This document shows positions 11,909 to 18,995 of a stretch of 64,000 nucleotides of DNA, piece by piece. The position numbers and the translations under genes were made by a program. The notes beneath the pieces were generated by a model that saw only the letters and a list, made by a program, of their open reading frames with translations, made no database searches and was not told where the DNA came from. The DNA comes from an uncultured Oleispira sp. (lineage in GTDB: Bacteria; Pseudomonadota; Gammaproteobacteria; Pseudomonadales; Oceanobacteraceae), in contig CAJXUD010000013.1 of the NCBI GenBank assembly GCA_913061415.1, positions 1 through 64,000 on the forward strand, in the 5' to 3' direction. Every line of letters begins with the position of its first letter. The stretch's first letter is position 1.

Positions 11909-13165
11909 CTACTTACGGATTTCACCATCACCCAATACCACATACTTTTGCGATGTTAAGCCATCAAGGCCAACTGGGCCGCGGGCATGAATTTTATCGG
12001 TAGAAATACCAATTTCAGCGCCTAAGCCATATTCGAAGCCATCCGCAAAGCGCGTCGACGCATTAATCATCACCGAGCTTGAATCCACTTCAACTAAGAA
12101 GCGACGCGATTTAGTGTAATTCTCACTCACAATCGTATCAGTATGGTGCGAACCGTGAGTATTAATATGGTCAATGGCTTCATCCAAATCTGCAACGATC
12201 TTAATCGATAAGATCGGTGCTAAATATTCCGTATCCCAATCTTCTTCGGTCGCCGCTACTGCTGTGGATAAAAGCGCCATGGTTTTTTCACAGCCACGTA
12301 ACTCAACGCCAATCGCGATATAAGCCGATGCTAAGTCTGGTAAAATTCTTTCAGCAATATTCTCATGGACCAATAAGGTTTCCATGGTATTACAGGTGCC
12401 ATAGCGATGAGTTTTGGAGTTGATTGCGATGTTAGTTGCTTTCGCTAGGTCGGCTTCTTCATCGATGTAAACGTGGCAAATACCATCAAGGTGTTTGATC
12501 ACCGTCACTTTTGCATCACGGCTAACGCGCTCAATTAATCCTTTGCCGCCACGAGGAACGATAACGTCTACGTATTCTGGCATGGTGATTAACTCACCCA
12601 CCGCTGCACGGTCAGTCGTTTCTACAACCTGAACCGCTTGCGCGGGTAAACCTGCATCTTCCAAGCCTTTAGCAATGCACAAAGCCAACGCTTGGTTCGA
12701 TTCAATCGCTTCTGAACCGCCACGTAAAATCGTTGCGTTGCCCGATTTTAAGCACAAGCTTGCCGCTTCGATCGTCACGTTTGGACGCGATTCATAAATA
12801 ATACCGATAACGCCTAACGGCACACGCATCTTACCAACCTGAATACCGCTTGGACGATAATTCAAATCGGTAATGCCCCCCACAGGATCGGCTAAACCAG
12901 CAACCTGCTTTAAGCCTTCTAACATGGTATCGATGCGACCATCGGTTAATTCTAGGCGGTCTAATAATGCGGCATCTAAACCATTTTCTTCACCGCGTGC
13001 CATATCTTTTGCATTGGCGACTTTTAGTGCTTCGCGGCTCGCTTCAATCTGCTGTGCAATATTCAATAATGCTTGGTTTTTAACCCCTGTTGTCGCACGA
13101 GCCATCGCTCGAGACGCTTTACGCGCTTGCTGACCTAGGGTTTGCATATATTGTTGAATTTCCAT
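11909..13165 (-). CDS. proA: Gamma-glutamyl phosphate reductase
   Basis: Second step of proline synthesis: NADPH reduction of glutamyl-5-phosphate to the semialdehyde. Aldehyde-dehydrogenase fold; the catalytic Cys lies in [13 protein letters not shown], with [22 protein letters not shown] and [16 protein letters not shown] as family blocks. About 418 aa. Two adjacent ATGs (13168 and 13165); GAGA upstream is better spaced for 13165. It heads the minus-strand cluster and is divergent from the GGDEF pair. Confidence 0.97.
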
Positions 13166-13319
13166 CATCGTTCTCTTTATATGTGGACGGCTTTTAATAA
13201 TCTCTAGATGGCCTCAGTATACAGTGAAGAAAAGCTTTGTTCATCCACTCTTATTTGCAACTATCCTTTGATTGCCACTACACTTATAGCAATTGAACTC
13301 TACAGTTGTCTCATCGTTT

Positions 13320-14255
13320 ATGGAAAAGCCTGCCCTTCAGCAAGTTATCATTCTTCAAGTCAAAGTTGTTTATTGCTTATTGGCTGCTTTCGCTCTCAGT
13401 ATTATTGCGCTGTTAGATTACCTAAAACAGGAGAAAATATTTGCCATTGTCGCCGCAACGTTTAGTGCGTTGCTGATTGTGTATGCCAGCTACCTTCTAC
13501 TAAGAAGAAAAAAACGCACCGCACCTTATGTAGAGTGGACGCTCACATTGTTATTAGGCTGCTTCACGATTTTTGGCATGCAGCAAGAAAGCTACGTGGC
13601 TCAATGGGTCTATTTTTTCCCCATTTATGTCTTTTTCCTCTTTCCCTTCAACATTGCTAACTACATCACTCTCACATACAGCGCGGTGATTTTTTTGGTC
13701 GTATTGAATAACTTTGATAGTTACATTCGCCTGCAGCTACTGTTCACCTATACCGCCTGCTACTCATTCTCGCTGGTTTACGCACTGGTCAATGAACGCA
13801 GTAATATGATGCTATCCAACCTCATTAATACCGACCCCTTAACCCAGGTGTATAACGAGCATCAGTTTCATCACAACATGAGCAAAGAAATTACCCGAGC
13901 CGACCGTCAGCGCACAGGGCTTGCCCTAATCGCCATTCGTCTGCCCGCGACCTGGCAGCAGTTAAAGCCTGAAGAATATGAAAATAGAATTGCCAACGCA
14001 GGGTACCGATTACAATCGAGCATTCGAGAGTTTGATACCTGCTACCGTTTAAACAACGATGATTTTGTGGTGATGCTGCCTAATAGTAACCGTGAAGACG
14101 GTGAAGCTTTATGCAAAAACCTACTGGCCGATATTAGTCGGTCGCGACATGCGCACCAAAATGTATTTTTAATCAAGCTGGCCACCTATAGACCAGAGGA
14201 TGATAGCTACAGTTTATTAAAACGCGCGGCGTCTCAATTTGAGGAGACGAAATAA
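13320..14255 (+). CDS. Membrane protein with catalytically degenerate GGDEF domain (I-site intact)
   Basis: 311 aa. About five to six transmembrane segments in residues 10-165, then a GGDEF-like domain (NTDPLTQVYNEHQF corresponds to the DxLTGLxNRRxF start). The active-site motif reads NNDDF (residues 245-249) instead of GG(D/E)EF, so diguanylate cyclase activity is not expected. The upstream inhibitory-site motif R236-E-F-D239 is intact and in exact canonical register (RxxDxxxRx then the motif). It may thus bind cyclic di-GMP as a receptor; that is inference. ATG 13320 is preferred over a TTG at 13293. The stop overlaps the next start (TAATG). Confidence 0.85.
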   Translation: MEKPALQQVIILQVKVVYCLLAAFALSIIALLDYLKQEKIFAIVAATFSALLIVYASYLLLRRKKRTAPYVEWTLTLLLGCFTIFGMQQESYVAQWVYFFPIYVFFLFPFNIANYITLTYSAVIFLVVLNNFDSYIRLQLLFTYTACYSFSLVYALVNERSNMMLSNLINTDPLTQVYNEHQFHHNMSKEITRADRQRTGLALIAIRLPATWQQLKPEEYENRIANAGYRLQSSIREFDTCYRLNNDDFVVMLPNSNREDGEALCKNLLADISRSRHAHQNVFLIKLATYRPEDDSYSLLKRAASQFEETK

Positions 14256-15232
14256 TGGAACAGCAACAACTCACCCTTCGCATTCAGATTATTTTATATA
14301 CCTTAGCCGCCTTTGCTATTTGTATTCTCATGATCGACCAATACCGTCAAGGGCTGTATTCGTTGGTACTCTCAAACGCCATTGGTGTTCCTGCTTTTTT
14401 ATTCAGTGCGATTTATCTGTATATTAACCGCGACCATAGCCCATCGTTATGGGTGCACCACCTGTTAATCATATTGCTGGCCTCACTAGCCTTGTATCAG
14501 CTGCCTGAATACTCCGAGCTGATGATGCACTTTTTATATGCTTTACCCTTGCTTAGCTTCTTTTGCTTACCCATCATCAACGCGACCCTCATTAACATTA
14601 TTGCTGCAACAATCTCTGCCTTGATGCTTTGGAATGAACTGGGTTGGCAAGATGGATTACGTTGGGCTACAAACTATTGTTTATTTCTGGGCTCTGCTTG
14701 GTGCTACGCTTACTTAACACAAATCAAACAAGAATCACTGCGCCGCTTAGCACTAACGGATCAAGTCAGTGGTGCCTACAACAAACGCCACTTTTACCAT
14801 ACCTTGGACCGTGAAATTAGCCGCAGCCAAAACTCTAATGACCCTATTAGCCTAATCGCATTGACCATTGATGATTATCATCAAATGATGGATATTCACG
14901 GACGCCGCTCTATTAATGGGTTTCTTGCGACCTTTACCGAACGAGCACGCAATATTATTCGAGCAGGCGATGAAGTGTTTCGTTTAGAAGAAGACTTATT
15001 TATTTTGCTACTACCCCACTGCCCTAATGACGGTGCGATTGTTTTAATGGAGCGTATAAAGCGTAACTTGCAACAGCAACCTTGGGATCCAATCCCTGAG
15101 CTTAACTTATCCACCAGCGCGGCGACGGGTGCTTCGGGTGAAACATCTGACGAATTAAAGAAACGTTTGTTGCAAAGCTTAACCAAGCAACAACGAACAA
15201 CGTTGCAGATAGGGGCATTTTCGGAGCAGTAA
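14255..15232 (+). CDS. Second membrane protein with degenerate GGDEF domain (I-site intact)
   Basis: 325 aa with the same plan as its neighbour: five to six membrane segments (to about residue 155) and a GGDEF-type domain beginning LTDQVSGAYNKRHF. The catalytic motif is EEDLF (245-249) rather than GGDEF, while the inhibitory site R236-A-G-D239 is kept. The motif positions are identical in both proteins, suggesting a tandem duplication followed by divergence. Translation is coupled to the upstream gene through a one-base overlap. Likely a cyclic di-GMP receptor or a partner subunit rather than an enzyme. Confidence 0.85.
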   Translation: MEQQQLTLRIQIILYTLAAFAICILMIDQYRQGLYSLVLSNAIGVPAFLFSAIYLYINRDHSPSLWVHHLLIILLASLALYQLPEYSELMMHFLYALPLLSFFCLPIINATLINIIAATISALMLWNELGWQDGLRWATNYCLFLGSAWCYAYLTQIKQESLRRLALTDQVSGAYNKRHFYHTLDREISRSQNSNDPISLIALTIDDYHQMMDIHGRRSINGFLATFTERARNIIRAGDEVFRLEEDLFILLLPHCPNDGAIVLMERIKRNLQQQPWDPIPELNLSTSAATGASGETSDELKKRLLQSLTKQQRTTLQIGAFSEQ

Positions 15233-15240
15233 TCAATTAT

Positions 15241-15338
15241 GCTCGGCACTGTCTGTTAGTACTGACTGTTCGTACTGTTCGTACTGTTCGTACTGTTCGT
15301 ACTGTTCGTACTGTTCGTACTATTATTAGTACCGAGCC
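15241..15338. repeat. Six-copy 9-bp tandem repeat inside an inverted repeat
   Basis: Six perfect head-to-tail copies of ACTGTTCGT occupy 15265-15318. They are framed by GCTCGGCACT (15241-15250) and its near-complement AGTACCGAGC (15329-15338; one mismatch), so the array would sit in the loop of a hairpin. It starts 9 bp after the stop of the second GGDEF gene, in the convergent gap before the methyltransferase gene. The T-rich tail expected of a terminator is absent. Confidence 0.8.
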
Positions 15339-15361
15339 TGATTTTAATCTGTGACTAAACC

Positions 15362-16222
15362 TTAAACATCAGCAGCGACTAAGCGTACTAAGCTTTGTCG
15401 TGAACTGGTTGGCATATCGAGCTTATCGTAATAATCCTCAGGTGCCGTTACTGCGACTTGTGCAAAGCCATCTTCTATAAAGCCCTGCTGCATCGCCTTA
15501 TTAGAATCGTAATGCAGTGGGTATTCCCCTTGGGTGAAAAAACCAACCACTTTCTGTGCGACTTTGACGTACTTATAAGATGGATGCTGTTCAAGCTTCG
15601 GATAAACTTCGGTCACATAGCGTGCCTGTGGAAATTGCTTCAACGCGACAGCCATTCTTGCCCACACTTTACGAATGGTTGGCAGGTCAAAATAATTCAC
15701 TAAGCCTTCGGTGATAATTAATGTCTTCTTCGTTTTATCGAGGCTTCCTAGCAACGCTTCAATGGAATGCGTTCCTGATTCATCTAAGATATTACAAGGC
15801 TGAGTCATATGCCCTTCTGCACGACCTAGCTGATCCAGTAATTCTGCTTTACGAGCCGACATTCCTGGCAAGTCACCCTCAACATAATGAATACTAGGAT
15901 GTGCTTTTTTAATGAGGTAGCCACGAGATGATAAACCAGCCGCCAGCTCGACAATTTGTTCAAAGCCTTCTTCAATGGCTTGCTCTACCAAATGGTCTAA
16001 TACAAAGTGACGCTGCAATAAAAAGGTGTCGATGCTCGCGCCCACCATTTTTTGCATAAAGATATTCATAGGCTTTAATGCCCAATAAGCCGCGCGCCCC
16101 ATTGGCGTTACAAACTGTTTATGAGATAAACCGTTTTTATACCAAATGTAACCTGTGTAATGAGCACTAATACTAATGCGTGACGTATCGGTAGCGGTAT
16201 CGATATCGTTAATTTGTTCCAT
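15362..16222 (-). CDS. Class I SAM-dependent methyltransferase, leucine carboxyl methyltransferase-like
   Basis: 286 aa. The motif VELAAGLSSRGY is the glycine-rich SAM loop as seen in the leucine carboxyl methyltransferase/YcgX-type family (compare the 'GxGLDtR' element), followed by the acidic VEGDLPGM and TLIITEGLVNYF. The family includes O-methyltransferases of small molecules and of protein C-termini; the substrate here cannot be told. It has its own 5' region and is transcribed toward the 9-bp repeat array. Confidence 0.7.
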   Translation of the reverse strand: MEQINDIDTATDTSRISISAHYTGYIWYKNGLSHKQFVTPMGRAAYWALKPMNIFMQKMVGASIDTFLLQRHFVLDHLVEQAIEEGFEQIVELAAGLSSRGYLIKKAHPSIHYVEGDLPGMSARKAELLDQLGRAEGHMTQPCNILDESGTHSIEALLGSLDKTKKTLIITEGLVNYFDLPTIRKVWARMAVALKQFPQARYVTEVYPKLEQHPSYKYVKVAQKVVGFFTQGEYPLHYDSNKAMQQGFIEDGFAQVAVTAPEDYYDKLDMPTSSRQSLVRLVAADV

Positions 16223-16493: not shown

Positions 16494-18962
16494 CTAAGGC
16501 GCACTAATGGTCTGAGTTACTTTATTGCCCGCCTTATCCACCAGTATCAAGGTCAGCGGCTCTTGCACGCTTCCCTCTACCGATATGTTGAAGTGGCTTG
16601 CATACAAGAACTTCCCAGTCCAGATACTGCCTGCAGCATCTTTTAACCATATTTTGTCAACGCCCATGCCATCATCAAAGGCCATGCCCACAAGCGTCGT
16701 TGAATTACTCCAGCGTACCTTTTCAACAACAGGGTTCAATAGATCAGGGAAGCTGAAAAAGTCTGACGGATCTGTTTTTTTCAGTATTTCATAGCGGTTA
16801 TTGTAACCATCGCCATCGCGGTCTTTATCGCTATTATCCCCCGTGCCGTCTTTATCAAGATCGGACCACTCTGACTTATTATCTGGAAAAGCATCAGCCG
16901 TATTATCAAGGCCATCGCCATCACGATCTGGGTCTAAAGCATCAGGGATACCATCACCGTCAGAATCGACTGGGACTGAACGTGCATCATTAGGGTCAAA
17001 GCTAAGGCTTAATTCATAGTCATTGTTTATGCCATCTCCATCTCGATCTAGGTCTGAATTATCCCCTTGGCCATCACCGTCCATATCAGCCCACTCGCGA
17101 GCATCCATGGGGAATTTATCGTCGGCATTTAATACATCGTCGCCGTCTTTATCACTGTCTAGTGCATCTGGCAGTTGATCGCCATCAATATCTGAAGGCG
17201 TCGAAGTATTATCGAGATGATTAAATCCAAGCTGTATTTCAAAGGCATTACTGATACGGTCGCCATCGATATCGAGATCTGAGTTATCGCCAAAACCATC
17301 GCTATCCATGTCAGCCCATTCTAATGGGTCATCAGAGAAGGCATCTTCGCGGTTCAATCTACCATCGCCATCACGGTCGTCATCTAAGCTGTCTGGAATG
17401 CCATCACGATCAAGGTCTGATGGCACATCACTAGCATCTAAATCGTTCGTCCCAAGAAGCCTTTCATAGTCATTGCTAATACCATCGCCATCACGATCTG
17501 GGTCGCTGTTATTGCCGATGCCATCACCATCAAAATCCAACCATTCAAATTTATTTAGCGGGAACATATCTAAGGCATTAGCGATAAAGTCGCCATCAAT
17601 GTCTTCATCTAGGTCGTCTGGAATCACATCTTTGTCTAAATCTTTCGGAACGCTTGCGGCTGAATTTGGGTCCAAACCCAGTCGTAATTCATAGTCGTTA
17701 TTGATCGTATCGCCATCACGATCGCCATCGGCATTATCACCAATGCCATCACCGTCTAGATCCAGCCAATCATTTTTATCGCGCGGAAATAGATCAACTT
17801 CATTTAAGTGACCATCACCATCAATGTCATCATCGACTGCATCCGCTAGGCCATCTTCATCCAAGTCTGTAGGGATGCTTTTAGCATCACGATCATTACT
17901 GTTAGCGGCTATCTCATCGTCATTCGAAAAGCCGTCATTATCGCGGTCAGTATCGGCATTATCACCAATGCCATCGCCATCTAGATCACCCCATTCTTTA
18001 GGGTCATCTGGGTAAGCATCTAAGTTGTTTGCAAAACCATCGCCGTCACGATCGGTATCGAACGAATCTGGCATAGAGTCGCCATCGCTATCAACAGGAC
18101 GGCTTGTTGCATCTAACGGATCAGTGCCTAGGTGAAGTTCGAAGACGTTGGGCACGCCATCGCCATCAGCGTCTTGATCTTGTTGGTCAGGAATACCATC
18201 ACCATCATTATCGGCCCAATCTTTTGCATCATCTGGGTAAAGGTCATCATCATTATTAGTACCATCACCATCACGGTCATTATCGTGCTGGTCTGGAATA
18301 CCATCACCATCTAAATCTTTAGGATGATTAGTTGCATCATGAGGGTTGGTCCCTAGCGTTTGCTCCCACTCATTACTAATGCCATCACCATCCCAGTCTT
18401 CATCGGTATTATCACCAATACCATCGCCATCAAAATCACGCCATTCGGTTTCTAATAAAGGGAATGCATCATCTTGGTTTTTATAACCATCGTTATCCAT
18501 GTCAGGATCAAGGACATCAGGATAACCATCTCGGTCATAATCATTGGGCGTATCGTTAGCATCGTCCATCGCAAAGCCGAGCTGCTGCTCGTATTCGTTG
18601 CGAATATGGTCACCATCAATATCTTGGTCGCGCTGGTCAGGAATACCGTCGCCATCGGTATCTCTTATCGCGGTAGAATCTCGCGGAAAATCATCATACT
18701 TATCCAGTACACCATCACCATCTTGATCAGAATCGATCGCGTCTGGAATGCCATCGTTATCGATATCGTATTGATCTGGCACATCGGGATCGGTGCCACT
18801 GGCCGTTTCCATAAAGTTAGACAGCCCATCGCCATCACGATCGGTATCAACGCTATCGGCAATACCATCGTTATCGATATCATCGATGGCCGCGACCGCT
18901 AACGGACTACTCAGCGCTAAAAGAAAGGCGCTGCCCAATAAGATTAAGTGTGGTGATTTCAT
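16494..18962 (-). CDS. Large secreted calcium-binding protein with thrombospondin type 3-like repeats
   Basis: 822 aa. Signal peptide of about 24 residues (to AVAA), then ten modules of roughly 70-75 residues rich in DxDxDGxxD loops, each of the form E-W-x-D-x-D-G-D-G-x-G-D-N ... D-R-D-G-D-G-x-x-N ... E ... L-G. About half of all residues in the modules are D, G or N. This is the thrombospondin type 3 repeat pattern, which binds many calcium ions. The last 90 residues form a different, beta-rich domain ending in VTQTISAP. ATG 18962 was chosen; the 18980 start is TTG. Probably a cell-surface or matrix protein; no lipobox or sorting motif seen. Confidence 0.85.
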   Translation of the reverse strand: MKSPHLILLGSAFLLALSSPLAVAAIDDIDNDGIADSVDTDRDGDGLSNFMETASGTDPDVPDQYDIDNDGIPDAIDSDQDGDGVLDKYDDFPRDSTAIRDTDGDGIPDQRDQDIDGDHIRNEYEQQLGFAMDDANDTPNDYDRDGYPDVLDPDMDNDGYKNQDDAFPLLETEWRDFDGDGIGDNTDEDWDGDGISNEWEQTLGTNPHDATNHPKDLDGDGIPDQHDNDRDGDGTNNDDDLYPDDAKDWADNDGDGIPDQQDQDADGDGVPNVFELHLGTDPLDATSRPVDSDGDSMPDSFDTDRDGDGFANNLDAYPDDPKEWGDLDGDGIGDNADTDRDNDGFSNDDEIAANSNDRDAKSIPTDLDEDGLADAVDDDIDGDGHLNEVDLFPRDKNDWLDLDGDGIGDNADGDRDGDTINNDYELRLGLDPNSAASVPKDLDKDVIPDDLDEDIDGDFIANALDMFPLNKFEWLDFDGDGIGNNSDPDRDGDGISNDYERLLGTNDLDASDVPSDLDRDGIPDSLDDDRDGDGRLNREDAFSDDPLEWADMDSDGFGDNSDLDIDGDRISNAFEIQLGFNHLDNTSTPSDIDGDQLPDALDSDKDGDDVLNADDKFPMDAREWADMDGDGQGDNSDLDRDGDGINNDYELSLSFDPNDARSVPVDSDGDGIPDALDPDRDGDGLDNTADAFPDNKSEWSDLDKDGTGDNSDKDRDGDGYNNRYEILKKTDPSDFFSFPDLLNPVVEKVRWSNSTTLVGMAFDDGMGVDKIWLKDAAGSIWTGKFLYASHFNISVEGSVQEPLTLILVDKAGNKVTQTISAP

Positions 18963-18995
18963 AATTATTATCTTTATCAATCAAATCTGCATAAA

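Follow-up and report, generated by a model that had tools for sequence, protein, structure and literature searches.

A coupled pair of degenerate GGDEF membrane proteins beside proA, with a conserved I-site in one partner, as a candidate c-di-GMP receptor

The gene pair and its architecture

The window, i.e., the whole stretch of 64,000 nucleotides from an uncultured Oleispira sp. that was analysed, contains two adjacent genes, ORF A and ORF B, which encode membrane proteins ending in a degenerate GGDEF domain. The genes, their I-site motifs and the flanking gene are located as follows.

11909..13168, minus strand: proA-like gene, head-to-head with ORF A; a context marker outside the receptor
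13320..14255, plus strand: ORF A, 311 aa, ATG at 13320 and TAA at 14253-14255; six predicted helices (residues 3-170), next a degenerate GGDEF domain with R193 in the place of PleD R313 and N267 where PleD has R390
14025..14036, plus strand: I-site motif REFD of A, residues 236-239
14255..15232, plus strand: ORF B, 325 aa, ATG at 14255 and stop at 15230-15232; six predicted helices (residues 3-165), next a degenerate GGDEF domain with the I-site set R236, D239 and R267 plus R190
14960..14971, plus strand: I-site motif RAGD of B, residues 236-239

The stop codon of ORF A and the start codon of ORF B overlap by one base (TAATG), and a stop-start overlap of the two genes is present in 36 of 44 loci of the window's own family. 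An alternative start of ORF A, the upstream TTG at 13293, would give a protein of 320 aa. In AlphaFold models built from 43-row alignments, both proteins open with six long helices, which take up the first 165-170 residues, and continue as a GGDEF fold (mean pLDDT 86.2 for B and 82.4 for A). The coordinates, the coupling of the genes and the membrane character given in a preliminary description of this DNA are thus all borne out.

The N-terminal regions of A and B match no Pfam family above the cut-off; named N-terminal sensors (MASE6 and others) reached E values of just 0.03-0.12, below the cut-offs, and were rejected. A GAF domain, which precedes the GGDEF domain in PelD, has no Pfam match in either protein up to E=1. 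Scans of positions 13100-15450 for promoters (two promoter-like sites vs 4.4 expected) and terminators (four terminator-like sites vs 2.3 expected, sd 1.8) were uninformative.

Distribution and synteny

A and B lie side by side in 44/44 genomes of the family, including that of the window. An order-level sample of 293 genomes added 15 loci in three other families (12 in f20, two in f7 and one in f37), so that adjacency holds in 59/59 loci over four families. In the f37 locus (genome G273), A was assigned from its position and a match of just 20 bits, and one genome (G041, unread bases) stands outside alignments A1 and A2 and inside the counts. The proA gene is head-to-head with A in all 59 loci, with a nadD-rlmH-mrdA cluster beyond it wherever the contig extends and the genes are recognised. 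The closest named records to B, 79-86% identical, come from metagenome-assembled genomes of Oleispira and Thalassolituus. Among 369 genomes drawn at class level there were, besides the window genome, three weak matches (108.7-116.6 bits); these score like the active cyclases that occur singly in the order, unlike the pair, and were set aside as occurrences outside the order. No earlier description of the pair appears among the literature search results listed for this bacterial group.

Loss of the catalytic residues

Pfam GGDEF matches (PF00990, cut-off 23.8 bits) are confined to the C-terminal half of each protein, covering residues 170-307 of A (E=6.3e-11, 42.7 bits) and 166-276 of B (E=3.9e-20, 72.7 bits). 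The genome contains 38 such matches, of which A scores lowest and B fifth lowest; the remaining 36 domains served as the control set. Motif read-off corroborates the signatures reported earlier, NNDDF in A and EEDLF in B in place of GG(D/E)EF, each beginning at residue 245. No GG(D/E)EF occurs in the 44 A and 44 B rows of the family, nor in the 15 and 15 rows from outside, and the signature of B is scrambled into 25 different five-letter versions in its 44 family rows. At the metal and guanine columns (PleD D327, N335 and D344) other residues predominate in the 59 A and 59 B rows; the same columns hold D, N and D in 33, 35 and 35 of the 36 control domains. A and B therefore lack both the signature and the metal and guanine residues of an active diguanylate cyclase.

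The RxxD motif is common among canonical domains of this genome (23 of 26), which means that its presence in a single sequence says little, as ancestry supplies it. Only two of the 10 other domains with a non-canonical signature keep RxxD, and retention after catalytic loss is thus unusual in this genome. Since the motif is missing from eight of these 10 domains and from 10 of 59 A rows, it is dispensable for keeping a degenerate GGDEF domain.

The I-site is fixed in B and eroding in A

The I-site draws three residues from a single GGDEF domain and a fourth, R313 in PleD numbering, from a neighbouring one, as described in PMC7288161; R313 is also described in PMC8457831. For the counts given here, all 59 A/B pairs were aligned with PleD, whose numbering was verified against its PDB sequence. 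RxxD was found in canonical register (R236/D239) in both window proteins, as the preliminary description had it. In B, R236 and D239 are present in 59/59 orthologues, the third arginine R267 (PleD R390) is R in 56/59 and K in two, and the partner-site arginine R190 (PleD R313 position) is kept in 58/59. The exceptions are alanine at the third arginine in G019 and cysteine at the partner arginine in G028.

Only 14 of 160 columns of the B domain reach 56/59. All four I-site columns are among them, as opposed to none of the nine catalytic columns. The corresponding hypergeometric value (3.8e-5) is to be read as a ranking rather than a true probability, because the rows share ancestry. Invariance of the same degree is seen at columns beyond the I-site (E187, L253, E266 and R304, each 59/59). 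A superposition of the B model and PleD (2v0n) aligns 153 residues at 1.6 A. Conserved over its orthologues in both the RxxD motif and the third arginine, B is a strong candidate for a c-di-GMP receptor.

A follows another pattern. Its RxxD is intact in 49/59 (R236 in 49, D239 in 50) and lost in 10, namely all seven members of genus g6 as well as G028, G033 and G273; B keeps RxxD in all 10 of these genomes. The third arginine equivalent of A is R in 7/59 and K in 5/59. R193, on the other hand, the PleD R313 equivalent, is present in 58/59, and E190, three residues earlier, in 59/59. In the 36 control domains, the R190/R193 position is R in 17 and the preceding glutamate is E in 19, and both residues may have a part in dimer packing or signal relay instead of ligand contact. 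The most divergent pair, L058 (G019), in which A has no RxxD and B has no third arginine yet keeps RxxD, may be decaying.

The preliminary description had proposed a duplicated receptor pair with the I-site retained and catalysis lost, and had named scattered I-site loss among orthologues as a refuting pattern. For B, the ortholog survey upholds the proposal: catalytic residues are lost and RxxD is retained throughout. For A as an independent receptor it does not, the scattered loss being what is seen, and an equal role for A is rejected on its RxxD and third-arginine counts. Given that the site is composed of three residues of one domain and an arginine of its neighbour, B has the full primary half and A mainly the neighbour's arginine. 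Judged from these residues, A resembles a dead partner, which may complete the site of B, and is no equal twin of B.

Origin and co-evolution of the pair

An alignment of A and B that takes in the membrane part spans 256 aa at 23% identity (E=1e-16). In a tree of 35 of the 59 pairs and five single relatives from the same order, all B rows cluster together (100/98); the A rows cluster as well, if less firmly (87/53), and the relatives are placed between the two clusters; a motif scan found GGEEF in three of the five relatives. Homology and tree grouping together agree with the duplication origin suggested earlier. The simplest reading, in a tree whose root is unfixed, is that duplication and catalytic loss predate the split of these families. 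End branches of A reach 1.1-3.3 in several lineages, reflecting fast evolution.

In a mirror-tree analysis of 54 of the 59 genomes, the A-B distance correlation with four neighbouring genes regressed out reaches 0.67 and ranks first among 15 pairs. Only this rank was used, as the permutations do not discriminate (weaker control pairs also score 0-2/1000), and the signal may just reflect shared fast evolution of A and B. Co-evolution and constant adjacency would fit an A-B heterodimer.

Downstream neighbours

Downstream of B, 36/59 loci carry a same-strand gene of the VTT (DedA) family, which directly follows B in 19 of them. In all 15 loci from outside the family, the same-strand gene after B aligns near full length with a VTT + PAP2 fusion, and Pfam detected both domains in each of the four outside loci searched (two f20, one f7 and one f37). 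In f20, the first ATG of this VTT/PAP2 gene overlaps the stop of B by four bases in 9/12. Within the family, a same-strand VTT protein was found in 21 of 43 fetched loci, directly after B in four; the remaining VTT genes are located about 1 kb or more beyond B, with an opposite-strand methyltransferase in between. The window's genus has no VTT gene near the pair, and the two VTT genes of this genome are on another contig.

DedA proteins are undecaprenyl-phosphate flippases, and the neighbourhood suggests, as a lead, a link of A and B to lipid-carrier cycling as the output of the pair. Control of DedA proteins by c-di-GMP is mentioned in none of the titles and abstract openings of the literature matches on DedA together with either c-di-GMP and undecaprenyl phosphate or GGDEF.

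Further features lie beyond B in the window.

15265-15321: perfect tandem 9-base repeat (ACTGTTCGT, 6.3 copies), just past B, in the gap of a convergent gene pair
15362-16222, minus strand: methyltransferase of the LCM family, which neighbours B convergently in 28/44 family loci
16494-18980, minus strand: protein of 828 aa built from thrombospondin type 3 repeats, a homologue of which lies near the pair in many g1 and g4 loci

Discussion

Among known systems, the comparison with PelD and CdgG made in the preliminary description is a fair one; these are described as degenerate homologues which use the site for protein contacts (PMC3032553). CdgI (YeaI) of E. coli is closer. It likewise combines a degenerate A-site with an intact I-site, in purified form it binds c-di-GMP, and its domain interacts with other GGDEF domains, as reported in PMC5635695. 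CdgI is, however, a single protein with an N-terminal domain that it shares with DgcT and DgcX, whereas the pair comprises two coupled genes whose I-sites are unequal and which keep their place next to proA. Like the pair, PelD of Pseudomonas aeruginosa is a membrane protein with a cytoplasmic degenerate GGDEF domain, which in PelD binds c-di-GMP (PMC7288161); the pair differs in having no GAF domain according to Pfam, and its recognised neighbours are proA and the nadD-rlmH-mrdA cluster. In BcsE, the degenerate GGDEF of the GIL domain requires RxxD for binding, and a second module completes a composite site, improving the affinity from about 2.5 uM to 140 nM (PMC11470070). Both halves of BcsE reside in one chain (REC*-GGDEF*), while the proposed second half of the pair's site would be a separate protein. 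PleD shares the fold and the four I-site positions with A and B but is an active cyclase, whose catalytic residues they have lost. ImcA of P. aeruginosa also joins a six-transmembrane domain to GGDEF, as described in PMC10904736; it is an active cyclase with GGEEF, and superposition over the whole length is poor (313 residues, rmsd 18.1). CdgI thus provides the precedent for c-di-GMP binding by a dead GGDEF domain and BcsE the precedent for an affinity gain from a composite site.

Taken together, these two genes probably encode a conserved receptor for the signal, not decayed enzymes. The explanation we propose, and consider fairly probable, is that of an old, vertically inherited duplicate pair which has lost catalysis and in which B binds c-di-GMP with A as its obligate partner supplying R193. 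We infer c-di-GMP binding, an A-B heterodimer and a signal output. The ancestors would have been six-helix diguanylate cyclases. B would be the ligand-binding subunit, holding c-di-GMP at R236, D239 and R267; as in PleD, the ligand would probably be an intercalated dimer. The GGDEF domain of A would pack against B, with R193 closing the site from the other side. Once bound, the ligand would clamp both cytoplasmic domains, and a signal would reach the membrane helices or a partner in the membrane.

The canonical register of RxxD in both window proteins and in 49/59 A rows could instead indicate two independent c-di-GMP receptors, each with its own I-site and acting as homo- or heterodimers. This is distinctly unlikely, as A is without the third arginine in 52/59 and without RxxD in 10/59, where B keeps the motif. 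It is also conceivable, and still unlikely, that no nucleotide is sensed and the GGDEF domains are protein-protein modules, the RxxD of B forming a contact surface for an active cyclase or the nearby DedA-family protein. Degenerate GGDEF domains can work through heteromeric contacts, as described in PMC5635695, the four columns of B outside the I-site are as invariant as RxxD, and the VTT gene downstream of B would offer a partner; against this stands the joint retention of four ligand-contact positions in B, which a protein-only surface would not need. The free variation of the GGDEF signature and the fast lineages of A might be taken to mean that both proteins are decaying pseudo-enzymes with RxxD as a relic. 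Such decay is extremely improbable and is largely refuted by conservation and synteny: the frames are intact, the genes are adjacent in every locus of four families and 14 columns of the B domain are near-fixed.

The receptor explanation can be extended to an output. A two-protein receptor with a composite I-site split between B and A might control the VTT protein, often fused to PAP2, in an ancestral operon, such that c-di-GMP gates lipid-carrier recycling; we regard this extension as quite doubtful.

Proteins with a degenerate GGDEF domain are frequently written off as inactive. In this case, a ligand site is frozen in B and eroding in A at one locus over four families, and the pair would represent a natural experiment in which a homodimeric allosteric site has been divided between two subunits. 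The VTT gene downstream of B in 36/59 loci suggests a testable output, the lipid-carrier cycle. If this holds true, the recycling of the lipid carrier for envelope or matrix polymers would be under a c-di-GMP gate.
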